DNA of 64,000 bases. It comes from Gracilimonas sp. (lineage in GTDB: Bacteria > Bacteroidota > Rhodothermia > Balneolales > Balneolaceae). The notes under the pieces are model-generated. The model did no database searches. It saw only the letters and a list, made by a program, of their open reading frames with translations, and was not told where the DNA came from. Numbering within the stretch: the first letter of the stretch is position 1; the number at the start of each line of letters is the position of its first letter. Shown here one piece after another: positions 11,159 through 23,481 of this stretch. The stretch lies in contig NZ_JAEPPI010000003.1 of NCBI RefSeq assembly GCF_017641085.1, positions 186,001 through 250,000 on the forward strand. Direction: 5' to 3'. Position numbers and translations under genes: made by a program.

Positions 11159-11854
11159 ATGGAGCAATCTGAAATTTTTGAGGCAGCAAAAGCCGGTAAT
11201 TTGGAAGAGCTGAAAAAGCTTTTGAAAGGCAAAATGGATATCAATGAAACCAACAAGAGTGGTGCCTCTGCTCTGATCCTGGCTTCTGAAAAAAACCACA
11301 CCGAAGTGGCTAAGTTTCTTGTAGAGGAGGGAGCTGATCTGAATATAGAAACCAAGATGGGGGGAACAGCATTAAACCGTGCAGCTGAAAATGCGAACCT
11401 GGAGCTGTTGAAATATTTCCTCGAAAAAGGAGCCAGTATTGGTAACCTTGCTTTAATTGCAGCTTCCCGAGTTGGAAATCTTGAAGCCGTAAAATTATTG
11501 GTAGAAGCCGGCGCTGATGTTGATGCCCAGCAACGCTGGGGACACACAGCACTGATGCTGGCCGCAAAAGAAGGCAACACAGATGTGGTGAAGTATTTGA
11601 TTGACCAGGGTGCCAATGTTAAGCTACGGGATAAGAATGGGGATACTGCTATGATGATCGCCATGGATAATGAGCAGGATGACATTGCCCTAATCCTTAG
11701 GAGAGCGGGAGCTAAAGCCGAATCCAAGCCTAAGAAAGAAGTTGCTCCTGTTACGGATGAAGATGAAGACGTTGACCTGGATGATACGCCCGATGTGGAC
11801 GACCTGGTTTCTGATGATGACGATGCCCCCGATGATGTAGATTTGGACGATTAA
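11159..11854 (+). CDS. Ankyrin-repeat protein with acidic tail
   Basis: This 231-residue protein consists of about six ankyrin repeats of 33 residues (residues about 3-190) with repeated G-A-x-L-x-x-A and V-x-x-L-x-x-x-G-A-D motifs. A basic linker (KAESKPKKE) and a highly acidic Asp-rich tail of about 35 residues follow. No signal peptide or membrane helix is visible, so it is probably cytoplasmic and acts in protein-protein binding; the partner is unknown. It starts 80 bp after fmt. Its acidic tail is not part of the ankyrin family fold. Confidence 0.88.
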   Translation: MEQSEIFEAAKAGNLEELKKLLKGKMDINETNKSGASALILASEKNHTEVAKFLVEEGADLNIETKMGGTALNRAAENANLELLKYFLEKGASIGNLALIAASRVGNLEAVKLLVEAGADVDAQQRWGHTALMLAAKEGNTDVVKYLIDQGANVKLRDKNGDTAMMIAMDNEQDDIALILRRAGAKAESKPKKEVAPVTDEDEDVDLDDTPDVDDLVSDDDDAPDDVDLDD

Positions 11855-17044: not shown

Positions 17045-17464
17045 TTATTCTTCAGTCAGGAACCTTGTCACAAACTCCTCCGGAGTGTAAACGGGAAGTT
17101 TGGATGCTTTGTAATCCCGTTTATTACGGGTAATGATCGCATCACACTTATTATCTAATGCGCAGAAATGATGGAGGGCATCTTCAAAATCTTTCCATTT
17201 AGCCTGCAATGAATAAGTGAAAACCTCTTGGTCTATGGTTCCAATACTCACGGTTTGGGCCAAACCCTCGAGCACTTCGTAAGCTGCCTGTCTGTCTATT
17301 TGATGAGCAATTATATAGAAGATCGTATCGGGTACATGGGCGGCAATTATACCTTCAATCTGACCTGTTTCAGAAGCGGATAAAATTCTGAGAGCCGATT
17401 CATTATTTGAGCGCAATAATGCAGCATCAAGGCAAACATTGGTGTCCAATAAATAGCGGGACAT
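17045..17464 (-). CDS. PIN-domain toxin (VapC-like)
   Basis: This is a 139-residue PIN-domain protein with D7 in YLLDTNVCLD, a conserved acidic residue in DFEDALHHFCAL and the late DAIITRNKRDY motif, giving the cluster of acids that binds Mg2+ in these ribonucleases. Its ATG overlaps the antitoxin stop codon by 1 nt (TGATG), so it is translationally coupled to that gene. VapC-type toxins cut tRNA or rRNA and halt growth when not bound by antitoxin; the target here is unknown. Confidence 0.88.
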   Translation of the reverse strand: MSRYLLDTNVCLDAALLRSNNESALRILSASETGQIEGIIAAHVPDTIFYIIAHQIDRQAAYEVLEGLAQTVSIGTIDQEVFTYSLQAKWKDFEDALHHFCALDNKCDAIITRNKRDYKASKLPVYTPEEFVTRFLTEE

Positions 17465-17724
17465 CAGAACCTTTTCATTTTACTTTGAAGGGCTCTTCCT
17501 TTTAACGACTTGTAATCGTAACTATTCACTTTTTTATTATTAGGAACTGCTTTGGAAATTTGTTCTGTAGCTGATTCTTTTGGAGGGTTCCAATAGTCCT
17601 CTTTAGATAATTCAATGATAAAATCTTCGAACAGTCCGGATACACTTTTGCCGCTCTTACCTGCAATACGCTTGGCTTTGGCCTTTACAGACTTTTCAAT
17701 TGAAAGAGTTAGTTTTTCCTTCAT
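17464..17724 (-). CDS. Ribbon-helix-helix antitoxin (DUF6364-like)
   Basis: This 86-residue protein starts MKEKLTLSIEKSVKAKAKRI, a beta-strand followed by two helices, as in ribbon-helix-helix repressors. A flexible C-terminal half rich in Lys, Asn and Ser would wrap the toxin. I chose the ATG at 17724 over the longer in-frame start at 17778, because the longer form would run through the 30-bp palindromic operator. It precedes and overlaps the PIN toxin gene, the usual order for antitoxin then toxin, and probably represses its own promoter. Confidence 0.85.
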   Translation of the reverse strand: MKEKLTLSIEKSVKAKAKRIAGKSGKSVSGLFEDFIIELSKEDYWNPPKESATEQISKAVPNNKKVNSYDYKSLKGRALQSKMKRF

Positions 17725-17740
17725 GGTGTGTGAAATTATG

Positions 17741-17770
17741 ATACGTATTGAATATATATTAAATACGTAT
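17741..17770. promoter_or_regulatory. Palindromic operator of the toxin-antitoxin pair
   Basis: A 30-bp inverted repeat with one mismatched pair has ends ATACGTATT and AATACGTAT. Each half carries the self-complementary ATACGTAT, with centres 22 bp apart, about two helical turns. It lies 17 bp upstream of the antitoxin ATG and over a possible promoter (TTTG-N19-TATATTCA on the minus strand). This fits cooperative binding of two RHH dimers for autoregulation. Confidence 0.7.
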
Positions 17771-17836
17771 TCTTGCAAACAAAATTGTTCGCCCTTGCTA
17801 TGTAGCAGTGGATAGGGAAATAGAATTCAAGAGCAT

Positions 17837-18227: not shown

Positions 18228-18638
18228 GATTTCGTAGTCGTAGCTAATCTCGGAGCCTTTCTCCAGTGCTTTGGAAACCGAGCAGTATTTGGTGATGGAC
18301 AAATCTAAGGCACGCTGAACTTTTTTGGGATCCAGATTCCCGGACAGGATAAAATGCAGGTGTATGGTTTTATACTCAGAATAACCGGCATCCAGCTTTT
18401 GTTTGTCGGCATCCACTTCTACTTTAAGATCGGTGAGGTCTTGTTTTTGCTTTTCGAGGATCGATATTACATCAATAGCGCTGCACCCGCCAATACCGGC
18501 CAGCAACAATTGCATGGGGCTTAATCCGCCTTCGAGTCCGCCAATATTATTTTTGCCATCAATTCGGATTTTTCCATCAGTTTCGTTTTCTGCTTCCATG
18601 TGGAAGTCTTTGCCAAGCCAGGTTACATCAATTTTCAT
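18222..18638 (-). CDS. OsmC-family peroxiredoxin-like protein
   Basis: This 138-residue protein has the OsmC/Ohr fold, with the first redox Cys in GIGGCSAIDVISIL and the second in SITKYCSVSKALE. It is closer to the YhfA/OsmC-like branch than to Ohr itself. Such proteins reduce organic hydroperoxides with thiol help. The gene is divergent from the histidine operon and ends inside an A/T-rich heptad hairpin that may serve as its terminator. Confidence 0.88.
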   Translation of the reverse strand: MKIDVTWLGKDFHMEAENETDGKIRIDGKNNIGGLEGGLSPMQLLLAGIGGCSAIDVISILEKQKQDLTDLKVEVDADKQKLDAGYSEYKTIHLHFILSGNLDPKKVQRALDLSITKYCSVSKALEKGSEISYDYEIK

Positions 18639-18790
18639 AAATATCAGGTTAGTTAATTCACTTTGAAGGAAGGTAAAGAAATGAAAGCTGTTGAACCACG
18701 GAAAGGATTACTAAAGCTGAGAGCCTTAACTGAACGAAATAAGTGATCAATCCAGTTTAATTATCAAATTATAAAGACGAATAAAAACAG

Positions 18791-18822
18791 TTGACCCAAT
18801 AACAAAGCTTTGCCTATATTTG
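18791..18822 (+). promoter_or_regulatory. Promoter of the histidine operon
   Basis: TTG (18791-18793), a 21-nt spacer and TATATTTG (18815-18822) match -33 TTG / -7 TAnnTTTG exactly. The -7 box ends 5 nt before the ATG of the leader peptide, so the transcript would begin at or next to that ATG. Confidence 0.7.
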
Positions 18823-18827
18823 AAGCA

Positions 18828-18914
18828 ATGAAAGACGCACTCCTACATATCCATCATCTTTCGCTCGATGTCCATCATGCCCATCGCGGACATCATCATA
18901 TCCATGTGCATTAA
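18828..18914 (+). CDS. hisL: Histidine operon leader peptide
   Basis: This 28-codon ORF starts MKDALLHIHHLSLDVHHAH and ends in HHHIHVH before TAA. Eleven of 28 residues are His, at positions 7, 9, 10, 16, 17, 19, 22-24, 26 and 28. It lies between a consensus promoter and hisG, and its last codons enter a hairpin followed by a T-run. This is the classic layout of transcription attenuation: ribosomes stall at CAU codons when His-tRNA is scarce and change the folding of the leader RNA. All eleven His codons are CAT. The ORF is too short for ordinary gene calling. Confidence 0.88.
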   Translation: MKDALLHIHHLSLDVHHAHRGHHHIHVH

Positions 18915-18928
18915 TTGCACCTTTTTTG
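18867..18928 (+). promoter_or_regulatory. Attenuator hairpins of the his leader
   Basis: One stem pairs GATGTCC (18867-18873) with GGACATC (18888-18894). A second pairs GTGCA (18906-18910) with TGCAC (18916-18920) and is followed by six T (18922-18927), acting as the terminator. The ACAT at 18890-18893 can pair instead with ATGT at 18904-18907 and would break the terminator. The terminator stem is only 5 bp, so the model needs testing; the layout is an inference. Confidence 0.5.
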
Positions 18929-18973
18929 ACCTTTTATCTACCTATTTTCTAATTCTTATTACTTACTAATTTC

Positions 18974-19855
18974 ATGAACAGAACAAAAGATTCTTCTACC
19001 TCTTTACGTATTGCTATTCAAAAAAGCGGTCGCCTGACTGATAAGACCATCGACTTACTGGAGGGCATCGGTATAGAGTTCGATAACTATAAGCGGAACC
19101 TGATTGTTAAAACCCGAAATTTTGATGTTGAGCTTTTATTGCTGCGCGATGATGACATCCCCGAGTATGTACAGGATGGTGTGTGCGATCTGGGTTTTGT
19201 GGGAGCCAACGAAACCCAGGAAACAGGCGCAGATGTAACCCCGATTCGGGATCTTCAATACGGGAAGTGCCGGCTTTCATTAGCAGCACCTAAAGACGGA
19301 GATATTCAGTCGCCACAGGATTTTGAAGGGAAGAAAGTAGCAACGAGCTATCCAAATTTGACCCGTCGTTTCTTCGAAGAACGAGATATAAATATTCAGA
19401 TTGTTGAAATATCCGGAGCTGTAGAAATAGCCCCTCAGCTTAAAGTAGCCGACGCCATTGTGGATCTGGTTTCCAGCGGAGGCACGCTGAAAGCAAACGG
19501 ACTGGTTGAGCTGGATACCATTCTGCACTCACAAACCCAGCTCATCCGAACCAACAAAGAACTTTCACCCGGCAAAAAGGAGCTGATTGAACGGTTTTTA
19601 GTGAGGATGGACGGCTATCAAAAAGCTGCGAAAAGCCGCTACATTATGATGAATGCATCCACATCCAATGTGGAAAGGATTAAGGAAATTATTCCTTCCA
19701 TGAAAAGCCCTACGGTGATGCCGTTGGCGGATAACGATATGGTAGCTATTCATACCGTGATTCCCCTGGATAAATTCTGGACAGTGATGGAAGAACTAAA
19801 AGAAGCAGGCGCTTCGGATATCGTAATGCTGCCCATTGAAAGCATGATCCTGTAG
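18974..19855 (+). CDS. hisG: ATP phosphoribosyltransferase (long form)
   Basis: This 293-residue enzyme carries out step 1 of histidine synthesis, joining ATP and PRPP. It starts LRIAIQKSGRL, with GANETQETG and the PRPP loop around VDLVSSGGTLKANGL. The length and the C-terminal ACT-like regulatory domain (about 215-293, with MPLADNDMVAIHTVI) mark the long, histidine-inhibited form that needs no HisZ. It is the first structural gene after the leader peptide. hisD follows after an unusually long 227-bp gap that holds a heptad repeat. Confidence 0.97.
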   Translation: MNRTKDSSTSLRIAIQKSGRLTDKTIDLLEGIGIEFDNYKRNLIVKTRNFDVELLLLRDDDIPEYVQDGVCDLGFVGANETQETGADVTPIRDLQYGKCRLSLAAPKDGDIQSPQDFEGKKVATSYPNLTRRFFEERDINIQIVEISGAVEIAPQLKVADAIVDLVSSGGTLKANGLVELDTILHSQTQLIRTNKELSPGKKELIERFLVRMDGYQKAAKSRYIMMNASTSNVERIKEIIPSMKSPTVMPLADNDMVAIHTVIPLDKFWTVMEELKEAGASDIVMLPIESMIL

Positions 19856-22596: not shown

Positions 22597-23481
22597 ATGT
22601 TAATAGCTATCACAAAAAATGCACTTTCCGATCCTGATGAGAAGTTCAGTTTCAGGAAGAATTCTCTTATCTCATTAAAAAGGATCTGTGAGTCCGGCCA
22701 TACTTTATTGATAGAGGATGCGGAGATTTCTGAAGAACAGGCTTTATTGTTGGACCAAGAGCACATCTCCTATGAAAAAGAAGGAGAAGCTGATTTAGTG
22801 ATTTCCGGTTCTGAACAGCAGCTGAAACTGCTTAAAGTAGAGAACGAGCTGCTGTCCTCTGAAAACTGGGAAGCTGTGGTGAGGTTCATTACCCGGGAAG
22901 CCCGAAAGGCATCTCTTCAGCGGAAGACCAATGAAACGGATATCAGTATCAATATAAACCTGGACGGAACCGGAAAGGCCGATATATCTACCGGATTGAA
23001 CTTTTTTGATCATATGCTGGATCAAATTGCACGCCATGGGTTAATTGACCTTAAATTGAGTTGCAAAGGGGATCTGGAAGTGGACGAACATCATACCATT
23101 GAAGATGTGGCCATCGCATTGGGTGAAGTGATTACCAAAGCCCTTGGAAATAAGAAGGGAATTGAGCGCTATGGCTTTGTTCTGCCGATGGATGAAGCAC
23201 AGGCTACAGTGGCGATAGACCTGTCCGGGCGTCCGTTTTTAGTGTTTGAAGGCGACTTCATGAGAGAGTATGTAGGCGATATGCCTACCGAGATGATTAA
23301 ACATTTTTTTTATAGCCTGGCAATGAACTTGAAGGCAACGATTCATGTTAGCTTTTCAGGTGAAAATGATCACCATAAAATTGAAGCATGCTTTAAGGGT
23401 TTAGCCCGGGCTTTAAAGATGGCTATAGAACAGAACGGGCGCATCAAAAATCTGATCCCAAGTTCAAAAGGGACGTTGTAG
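22597..23481 (+). CDS. hisB: Imidazoleglycerol-phosphate dehydratase with a degenerate N-terminal domain
   Basis: This 294-residue protein has a complete IGP dehydratase domain from about residue 101: FFDHMLDQIARHG, DEHHTIEDVAIALGE, FVLPMDEAQA, TEMIKHFFYS, NDHHKIEACFKGLARAL and SSKGTL, with the paired His motifs that bind manganese. The first 100 residues are not part of this domain. Their position and the pattern ISLKRICESGHTLLIEDAE recall the HAD histidinol-phosphatase half of the E. coli-type fused HisB, but the DxDGT catalytic motif is absent and the region is about 65 residues shorter. It probably keeps only dehydratase activity. Confidence 0.93.
   Translation: MLIAITKNALSDPDEKFSFRKNSLISLKRICESGHTLLIEDAEISEEQALLLDQEHISYEKEGEADLVISGSEQQLKLLKVENELLSSENWEAVVRFITREARKASLQRKTNETDISININLDGTGKADISTGLNFFDHMLDQIARHGLIDLKLSCKGDLEVDEHHTIEDVAIALGEVITKALGNKKGIERYGFVLPMDEAQATVAIDLSGRPFLVFEGDFMREYVGDMPTEMIKHFFYSLAMNLKATIHVSFSGENDHHKIEACFKGLARALKMAIEQNGRIKNLIPSSKGTL

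Follow-up and report, generated by a model that had tools for sequence, protein, structure and literature searches.

The question raised by this locus is how the histidine operon of a Gracilimonas species is controlled, and what part a short open reading frame (ORF) directly in front of its first gene may play in this. The window, that is the whole stretch of 64,000 nucleotides that was analysed, contains the operon hisG-D-C-B-H, whose first gene hisG (18974-19855; TIGR00070, 204 bits) lies on the plus strand, to which all coordinates of the locus refer. Upstream of it, an ORF of 28 codons runs from the ATG at 18828 to the TAA at 18912-18914 and translates to MKDALLHIHHLSLDVHHAHRGHHHIHVH*. Eleven codons encode histidine, all of them CAT and the first being codon 7, and the frame stays open upstream to a TTG at 18810 (34 codons). 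The initial annotation had described this ORF between a promoter-like site and hisG, and its reading is confirmed at 18828-18914. The ORF is beyond chance in the window: only two of the 926 ORFs of 15-60 codons contain at least six His and at least 20% His, namely this one and a 40-codon ORF with nine His on the minus strand at 11751, and in 60 dinucleotide shuffles of its sequence such ORFs came up three times altogether, with at most seven His. A search for plasmid records matching the his leader locus found none. Among the neighbouring genes, HisB (22597-23481) carries about 100-130 N-terminal residues without a Pfam match ahead of its IGPD domain; a short HisB domain that retrieves only Balneolota sequences has been reported (PMC8305728). 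On the minus strand at 17045-17778, a PIN-domain protein (PF13470, 77 bits) is encoded directly behind a DUF6364 protein, and judging from this pairing the two are likely a VapBC-like toxin-antitoxin system.

If the ORF matters for the operon, it should be found at the same place in relatives. By HisG identity, the nearest named relatives are two Gracilimonas (90% and 88%) and a metagenome-assembled genome labelled Balneola sp. (89%), followed by Balneola, Aliifodinibius/Fodinibius and Rhodohalobacter; NCBI taxonomy places Gracilimonas, Fodinibius and Rhodohalobacter in the Balneolaceae, phylum Balneolota. A hisG gene was detected in 121 of the order's 128 genomes. Leaving out two genomes with a cut hisG (G027, G050) gave 119 upstream regions, and 117 of these have at least 150 nt upstream (G074 and G077 are shorter) and form the census. 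A leader was called if an ORF of 14-60 codons had at least four His and at least 15% His, ended at least 20 nt before hisG, and started 2-7 nt 3' of a TAnnTT box. By this rule, a His-rich ORF behind the box precedes hisG in 86 of the 117 loci, and in 93 if the box is not required, compared to 5 and 70, respectively, of 2,340 shuffled regions. The 104 control loci, taken upstream of trpE, ilvB, leuA, pheA and aspartokinase, were all negative. The initial annotation had proposed to look for such ORFs in close relatives, and they are there, in 9/9 members of the genus and 75/83 of the family (f1), counts that are not independent because family members are related. The other families of the order contribute 6/11 (f2), 3/4 (f3), 1/1 (f4) and 1/18 (f5). 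In f5, the rule gives no leader in 17 of 18 loci, and genomes without a called leader mostly have a -7-like box shortly before hisG. Within the family, genus g19 passes in one of seven loci only; five of these seven have a His-rich ORF whose ATG follows the box at a distance of 9-11 nt. Four genomes carry a distant HisG (41-45% identity), three of them without a leader, and the fourth (G036, 45%), one of the 75 family positives, is doubtful; the box assigned to G080 is also poor. For the structural comparisons a set of 90 leaders was used, from which G036, G087, G092, G095 and G100 were dropped by eye, and of which the rule-based census is independent: G036 is in the census only, and G084, G085, G086, G088 and G123 are in the 90-leader set only. 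In two f5 genomes (G122 and G123, leaders L085 and L086), a strong hairpin (-13.2 and -11.0 kcal/mol) encloses the last His codons together with the stop codon, accompanied by seven T in G123; the other 16 f5 loci are without a called leader.

Thus, the locus has what is expected of an amino-acid attenuator: a short ORF rich in His codons, between a promoter-like site and the first gene, and at the same place in relatives. Because the ORF is His-rich and bound to the operon but otherwise drifts in sequence, stalling of ribosomes at the His codons is the best-fitting reading of how it would sense, and we regard it as very likely that it is a leader peptide that senses histidyl-tRNA in front of hisG. 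The best-known such system is the enterobacterial hisL (Rfam RF00514, His_leader), which shares the short His-codon-rich ORF between promoter and hisG, the leader stem-loops, and the derepression expected when charged His-tRNA is lacking. In contrast to hisL, the Gracilimonas leader is predicted to be leaderless, its His codons are scattered instead of forming one run, its stop codon lies in a hairpin, and a conserved intrinsic terminator is missing. Under strict filters, none of 126 genomes of the order reaches the RF00514 cut-off of 49 bits, with two weak hits, and an Rfam scan of 18600-19100 gave neither RF00514 nor another family, save one hit at chance level.

Leader-peptide control is not confined to this family. 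We use phylum here for the wide Bacteroidota, a grouping larger than the Balneolota. Twenty genomes from outside the class were chosen by hand for family spread. A loose His rule picked up a short ORF in 16 of them, and 15 of these ORFs are plausible leaders, e.g. MKRTVLHHHHHHYNGQ and MKQITHIHHHHFLTNG. These resemble the Gracilimonas leader in preceding hisG and being rich in His; unlike it, they have a 5' UTR (the box is 18-24 nt before the start in 6/15), their His codons mostly form one compact run, and 13/15 carry a strong terminator followed by a T-run. L275, L276 and L278, among others, look like textbook his attenuators with a His-run leader and a strong terminator; L276 reaches 36 bits to RF00514, below the cut-off. 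Inside the class and outside the order, 10 of 40 loci, picked by hand among the matches listed, have an ORF under the loose rule, and eight are clear by eye (7/10 in family f18, 1/3 in f11). The f18 leaders (L147-L151, L155 and L156) are His-rich short ORFs of another kind, e.g. MTLHHHHVLSRRRDD and MRHTAHHGHAVHAQHHPMPDSD. Concerning other operons, Trp leaders with WWW precede trpE in 8 of 20 loci, four in Gracilimonas genomes and four in other members of the order; the four from Gracilimonas (L163, L166, L167 and L168) are classic trp leaders with strong terminators. For the genome of the window, the 600 nt upstream of trpE yielded no such leader. The upstream regions of ilvB, leuA, pheA and aspartokinase gave no convincing leader; Phe/Tyr-containing ORFs at two pheA loci (L235, L237) and hydrophobic ORFs at two ilvB loci (L180, L181) were unconvincing by eye. 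With these his and trp leaders, leader-peptide control looks common in the phylum, and the Balneolaceae his leader is a deviant form of it.

The deviation would begin at the 5' end. Between 18791 and 18820, a consensus scan found a promoter-like TTGACC (18791-18796), an 18-nt gap and TATATT, by itself no evidence above chance since one such site was found compared to 1.8 per shuffle. However, the eight bases TATATTTG at 18815-18822 match the Bacteroidota -7 box TAnnTTTG perfectly, and the same box is found ahead of the His leader in relatives. Five bases separate it from the start codon of the leader. In the family, this gap is 4-5 nt in 66 of 75 leaders, although the census rule allowed 2-7: it is 4 nt in 33 GTG leaders and one ATG leader, and 5 nt in 20 ATG and 12 GTG leaders. 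In Flavobacterium psychrophilum, the -7 box has been reported to occupy -12 to -5 (PMC9723704). With such a spacing, the first base of the RNA would fall on the start codon or one base before it, and a transcription start at 18827-18828 is predicted here. The leader is therefore predicted to be leaderless. Leaderless transcripts are rare in Bacteroidota, with about 3.7% of 5' UTRs shorter than 10 nt reported in B. thetaiotaomicron (PMC7366714) and 5.5% in F. psychrophilum (PMC9723704). A parallel is the leaderless trp leader rnTrpL of Sinorhizobium meliloti, in which the ATG of the leader peptide is the 5' end of the RNA (PMC7298713); it differs in belonging to a trp operon and to another phylum, and in the transcription attenuation that is reported to yield the RNA rnTrpL. 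Codon 7 is the first His codon in 57 of the 75 family leaders, and a ribosome stalled there would cover the very 5' end of the transcript.

Two hairpins are predicted in the leader RNA, and both stems that had been pointed out in the initial annotation are present in the predicted fold. P1 lies inside the ORF (18867-18894) and pairs GATGTCC (18867-18873) with GGACATC (18888-18894). P2 is built around the stop codon (18906-18920) from GTGCA (18906-18910) and TGCAC (18916-18920). The region 18828-18926 folds mildly better than its shuffles (z -2.1, 6/200). From codon 8 on, the window's leader does not exceed synonymous recodings in stability (p 0.51), and the ORFs have a mean z of +0.17 in the nine leaders of the genus and -0.76 in the 90 leaders, of which 15 reach p<=0.05. 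By this measure, the case for P1 as a structure selected beyond the peptide is weak. Changes on both sides of the stem in relatives speak for P1. In the Gracilimonas-Balneola clade (22 genomes), 145 of 154 cells are paired compared to 136.6 +/- 1.6 when re-dealt (0 of 5000), though the 7-nt arms were chosen by hand and are thus biased towards pairing; two pairs changed on both sides, pair 2 from A-U to G-C and pair 5 from U-A to C-G or G-C. In the Rhodohalobacter group (28 leaders), 72% of the cells pair, and 13 cells with double changes stand against 6.4 in shuffles (3 of 500); one pair is GC in 12, AU in six and UA in two leaders, and unpaired in eight. The two alignments comprise 22 of 25 sequences (A1, near-identical G004, G005 and G023 omitted) and 28 of 30 (A2, G060 and G076 omitted). 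For P2, the last codons pair more strongly with the leader's own spacer than with shuffled spacers (-8.4 and -6.3 kcal/mol, respectively; 17/90 leaders at p<=0.05), and at the level of groups own arms pair better than arms from different genera (-8.9 vs -6.7 kcal/mol; true of 19 of the 21 groups; Wilcoxon p 8e-5). Its variants include GUGC:GCAC, ACGC:GCGU in the Balneola-like g2, and GCGC:GCGC in G028; in g11 an outer stem such as GGGCA:UGCCC is added. Fodinibius (g3) has a hairpin 3' of the stop codon in place of P2, which beats shuffles in 8/12 leaders (p<=0.05) and is followed mostly by C and U without a T-run. Conserved in the family are a hairpin in the ORF, a hairpin around the stop codon and, ahead of hisG, a pyrimidine tract poor in G.

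Does P2 terminate transcription? It is directly followed by a C and six T (18922-18927). Here and in the sibling genome G023, the six T could make P2 a weak intrinsic terminator, and a scan of 601 nt marked one terminator-like site compared to 0.2 per shuffle. The hairpin alone, with its 5-bp stem, has just -5.3 kcal/mol. As criterion for a terminator we used a single hairpin of at most -8 kcal/mol followed by at least five T in eight bases. In the order, the search covered the sequence between the start of the leader and hisG, at the 20 loci elsewhere in the phylum the 230 nt before the hit. Such a terminator is found in 12 of the 90 leaders of the order and in 5 of 78 in the family, with the window's leader not among them; one of the 12 Fodinibius leaders, both f5 leaders (G122, G123) and four of six f2 leaders pass. 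At a looser -6 kcal/mol the number rises to 24/90. T-runs after P2 occur in 25 of 61 leaders, while 26.2 are expected from the composition of the spacers (61 of the 66 family leaders outside g3, with a stem of at least 4 bp). Elsewhere in the phylum, 15 of 20 his loci have a terminator. Among the 15 loci with a leader, 14 have one, which reaches -14.5 kcal/mol or below in 13; G218 has a terminator without a leader and G299 a leader without a terminator. All eight trp leaders found in the order have one, at -15.9 kcal/mol or below. With so few terminators in the family and T-runs at the rate of composition, the 5-bp stem and the six T are probably not a conserved terminator; the six T are not a shared feature but may act in this genome. 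The initial annotation had taken stem and six T for the terminator and had itself named the weak stem as its soft spot. The doubt was right and the assignment is not supported for the family, all the more as a stop codon within the hairpin would give the wrong polarity by enterobacterial logic. Of its broader proposal, that his attenuation acts here as in Enterobacteria, the His-codon leader sensing histidyl-tRNA is supported, and the terminator part of the layout is not. An antiterminator pairing common to the family was not seen in minimum free energy folds and by eye. One candidate picked by eye, the P1 loop AUGCCCAU with the P2 arm AUGUGCAU in Gracilimonas, is poorly kept in G025, G026, G091 and Balneola and was rejected. 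In Fodinibius, UAGC at the stop codon and GCUA of the next hairpin are kept, and UAGCAU remains 3' of the ORF even where the frame ends earlier, as in L012 (G019), which suggests that the stretch around the stop codon has a role as RNA.

The third conserved feature is the spacer of 59 nt between leader and hisG (18915-18973), which by its composition is a candidate site for Rho loading or ribosome standby. It contains two G and a 45-nt run without any, and 59-nt windows equally poor in G make up 0.08% (103/127,882, both strands). The 78 family spacers have 6.8% G and 69% C+T, compared to 18.4% and 52% in 39 control upstream regions (Mann-Whitney U test for G, 2e-16); G amounts to 17% in 15 his-leader spacers from other parts of the phylum. 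Without g3, the remaining 66 have 6% G and 27% C, fitting the C-rich and G-poor stretch of Rho-dependent uORF attenuators. The last 35 nt before hisG contain 3% G in the family; the value is 13% both for the 16 f5 genomes without a leader peptide and for 15 genomes from other parts of the phylum. The spacers have next to no fold of their own, except in g3 and a few small groups. A further pairing, P0, between the 5' end of the leader (GUGAA...) and a UUUCAC 3' of P2, was convincing in single folds (GUGAAUUC:GAAUUCAC in G031/G032). In 52 GTG leaders, the duplex energy is -6.7 compared to -5.7 for shuffled sequences (6/52 at p<=0.05), the contiguous run from the first base is 5.63 compared to 5.56 in shuffled and 5.37 in foreign spacers, and runs of at least six occur in 23/52 with 20.0 expected. 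Since most of this follows from starts rich in A and spacers rich in U, P0 was dropped, and together with it a translational model that rested on it.

How could such a leader switch the operon without a conserved intrinsic terminator? From the absence of the latter and the known logic of corL and mgtL, we infer that Rho-dependent termination with P2 as gate is the most likely output step, although we put it a little short of an even chance. In Salmonella and E. coli, translation of short uORFs (corL-corA, mgtL-mgtA) lowers expression through Rho; translation of corL lowers corA via Rho, poor translation raises it, and for mgtA the action of Rho was reported for Salmonella (PMC11552253). These leaders differ from the one studied here in responding to Mg2+ instead of the amino acid of the operon, and in not being leaderless, a Shine-Dalgarno site being described for corL. 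In the proposed scheme, transcription would start at the ATG and a ribosome would load on the bare 5' end once this has emerged. If charged His-tRNA is scarce, the ribosome would stall at the His codons, the first of them being codon 7, and the remaining leader RNA would fold into P1 and P2. If histidine is ample, it would reach the stop codon, open P1 and P2, and leave; the freed G-poor pyrimidine tract would then allow Rho to load and to halt RNA polymerase before or inside hisG, so that histidine lowers his expression. The genome carries rho (593 bits). Besides this main gene, a second Rho-like ORF is found at C2:403775-404878 in the window's genome (G000), with 407 bits to TIGR00767 (cut-off 509). 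The weak point of the scheme is that P2 covers only the first six of the 59 spacer bases, so that most of the tract would be open with or without P2, and the scheme does not account for a gating of Rho by P2. In addition, the G-poor tract could equally be a standby site for ribosomes. Taken as a whole, a ribosome-mediated his attenuator with leaderless start and Rho output is on balance the slightly favoured explanation.

The sign of regulation speaks against P2 acting together with the T-run as a terminator that a stalled ribosome blocks directly or via an antiterminator. Given the footprints of ribosome and RNA polymerase, a ribosome at the leader stop codon before the polymerase has moved past the six T would collide with it. 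P2 as a terminator would therefore form when the ribosome lags, as it does in starvation, which is the wrong sign. By this geometry, stalling at codon 7 would leave P2 free and a ribosome close behind the polymerase would block it, so that starvation would stop transcription. In the Rho scheme, stalling keeps P2 closed and translation to the stop codon frees the tract, and this would give the right sign. The terminator-like site above the shuffle rate and the candidates in 24 of the 90 leaders at -6 kcal/mol, and at -8 in both f5 and four of six f2 leaders, speak for intrinsic termination, as do six T of eight after P2 in G000 and G023 and five of eight in G024 and G029. But T-runs at composition rate, the rarity of terminators in the family and the weak P2 make it rather unlikely.

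The output could also be at the level of the hisG mRNA, its translation or decay, if the leader ribosome or P1 and P2 set the access to a standby tract in the spacer, or if a ribosome stalled at codon 7 shields the 5' end from nucleases. The low G content just before hisG and the mostly unfolded spacer are consistent with it, and for speF, pausing at Arg codons has been reported to change mRNA stability (PMC6386406). However, a structure that would link leader and spacer, the start codon with UUUCAC, is hardly above chance in its runs and slightly better than shuffled in its energy, and we consider this output quite improbable. Finally, the ORF might encode a working His-rich peptide, for example one binding metal, with its place before hisG being secondary. 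The peptide is indeed very rich in His, and a stretch like DVHHAH(R/H)GHHH is conserved in the genus. But the last 24 bases of the ORF occur once in the genome (at up to three mismatches), it has no Pfam family, the residues other than His drift between genera, the control loci have no such ORF, and leaders with Trp runs precede trpE in the same genus, so that it is hard to believe in a peptide function of this kind.

In 2010, the authors of a survey wrote that they knew of demonstrated leader-peptide systems only from Proteobacteria and Actinobacteria, to which they added Firmicutes (PMC2965389). A Flavobacterium study reported clues for leader peptides before amino-acid operons (PMC9723704), and in a study of his genes in these phyla attenuation is named once, for E. 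coli and Salmonella, and the word leader never (PMC8305728). In the open-access literature, we found no description of this Balneolaceae his leader. The 86 short ORFs indicated here fall in a size range that gene finders frequently overlook. Across the wide phylum, leaders appear before hisG in numerous lineages, and in one family their form is mostly without the standard terminator. It is a tentative idea, more doubtful than probable, that the Balneolaceae rebuilt their his attenuator by losing the intrinsic terminator and letting a leaderless ORF gate Rho via the hairpin at its stop codon. With relatives that have the standard form, the family offers a natural experiment on how the output step of attenuation can change, and on whether Rho can take over this step in a biosynthetic operon. 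If true, the histidine operon of these bacteria would have an attenuator of amino-acid biosynthesis that is switched by Rho and not by a hairpin.
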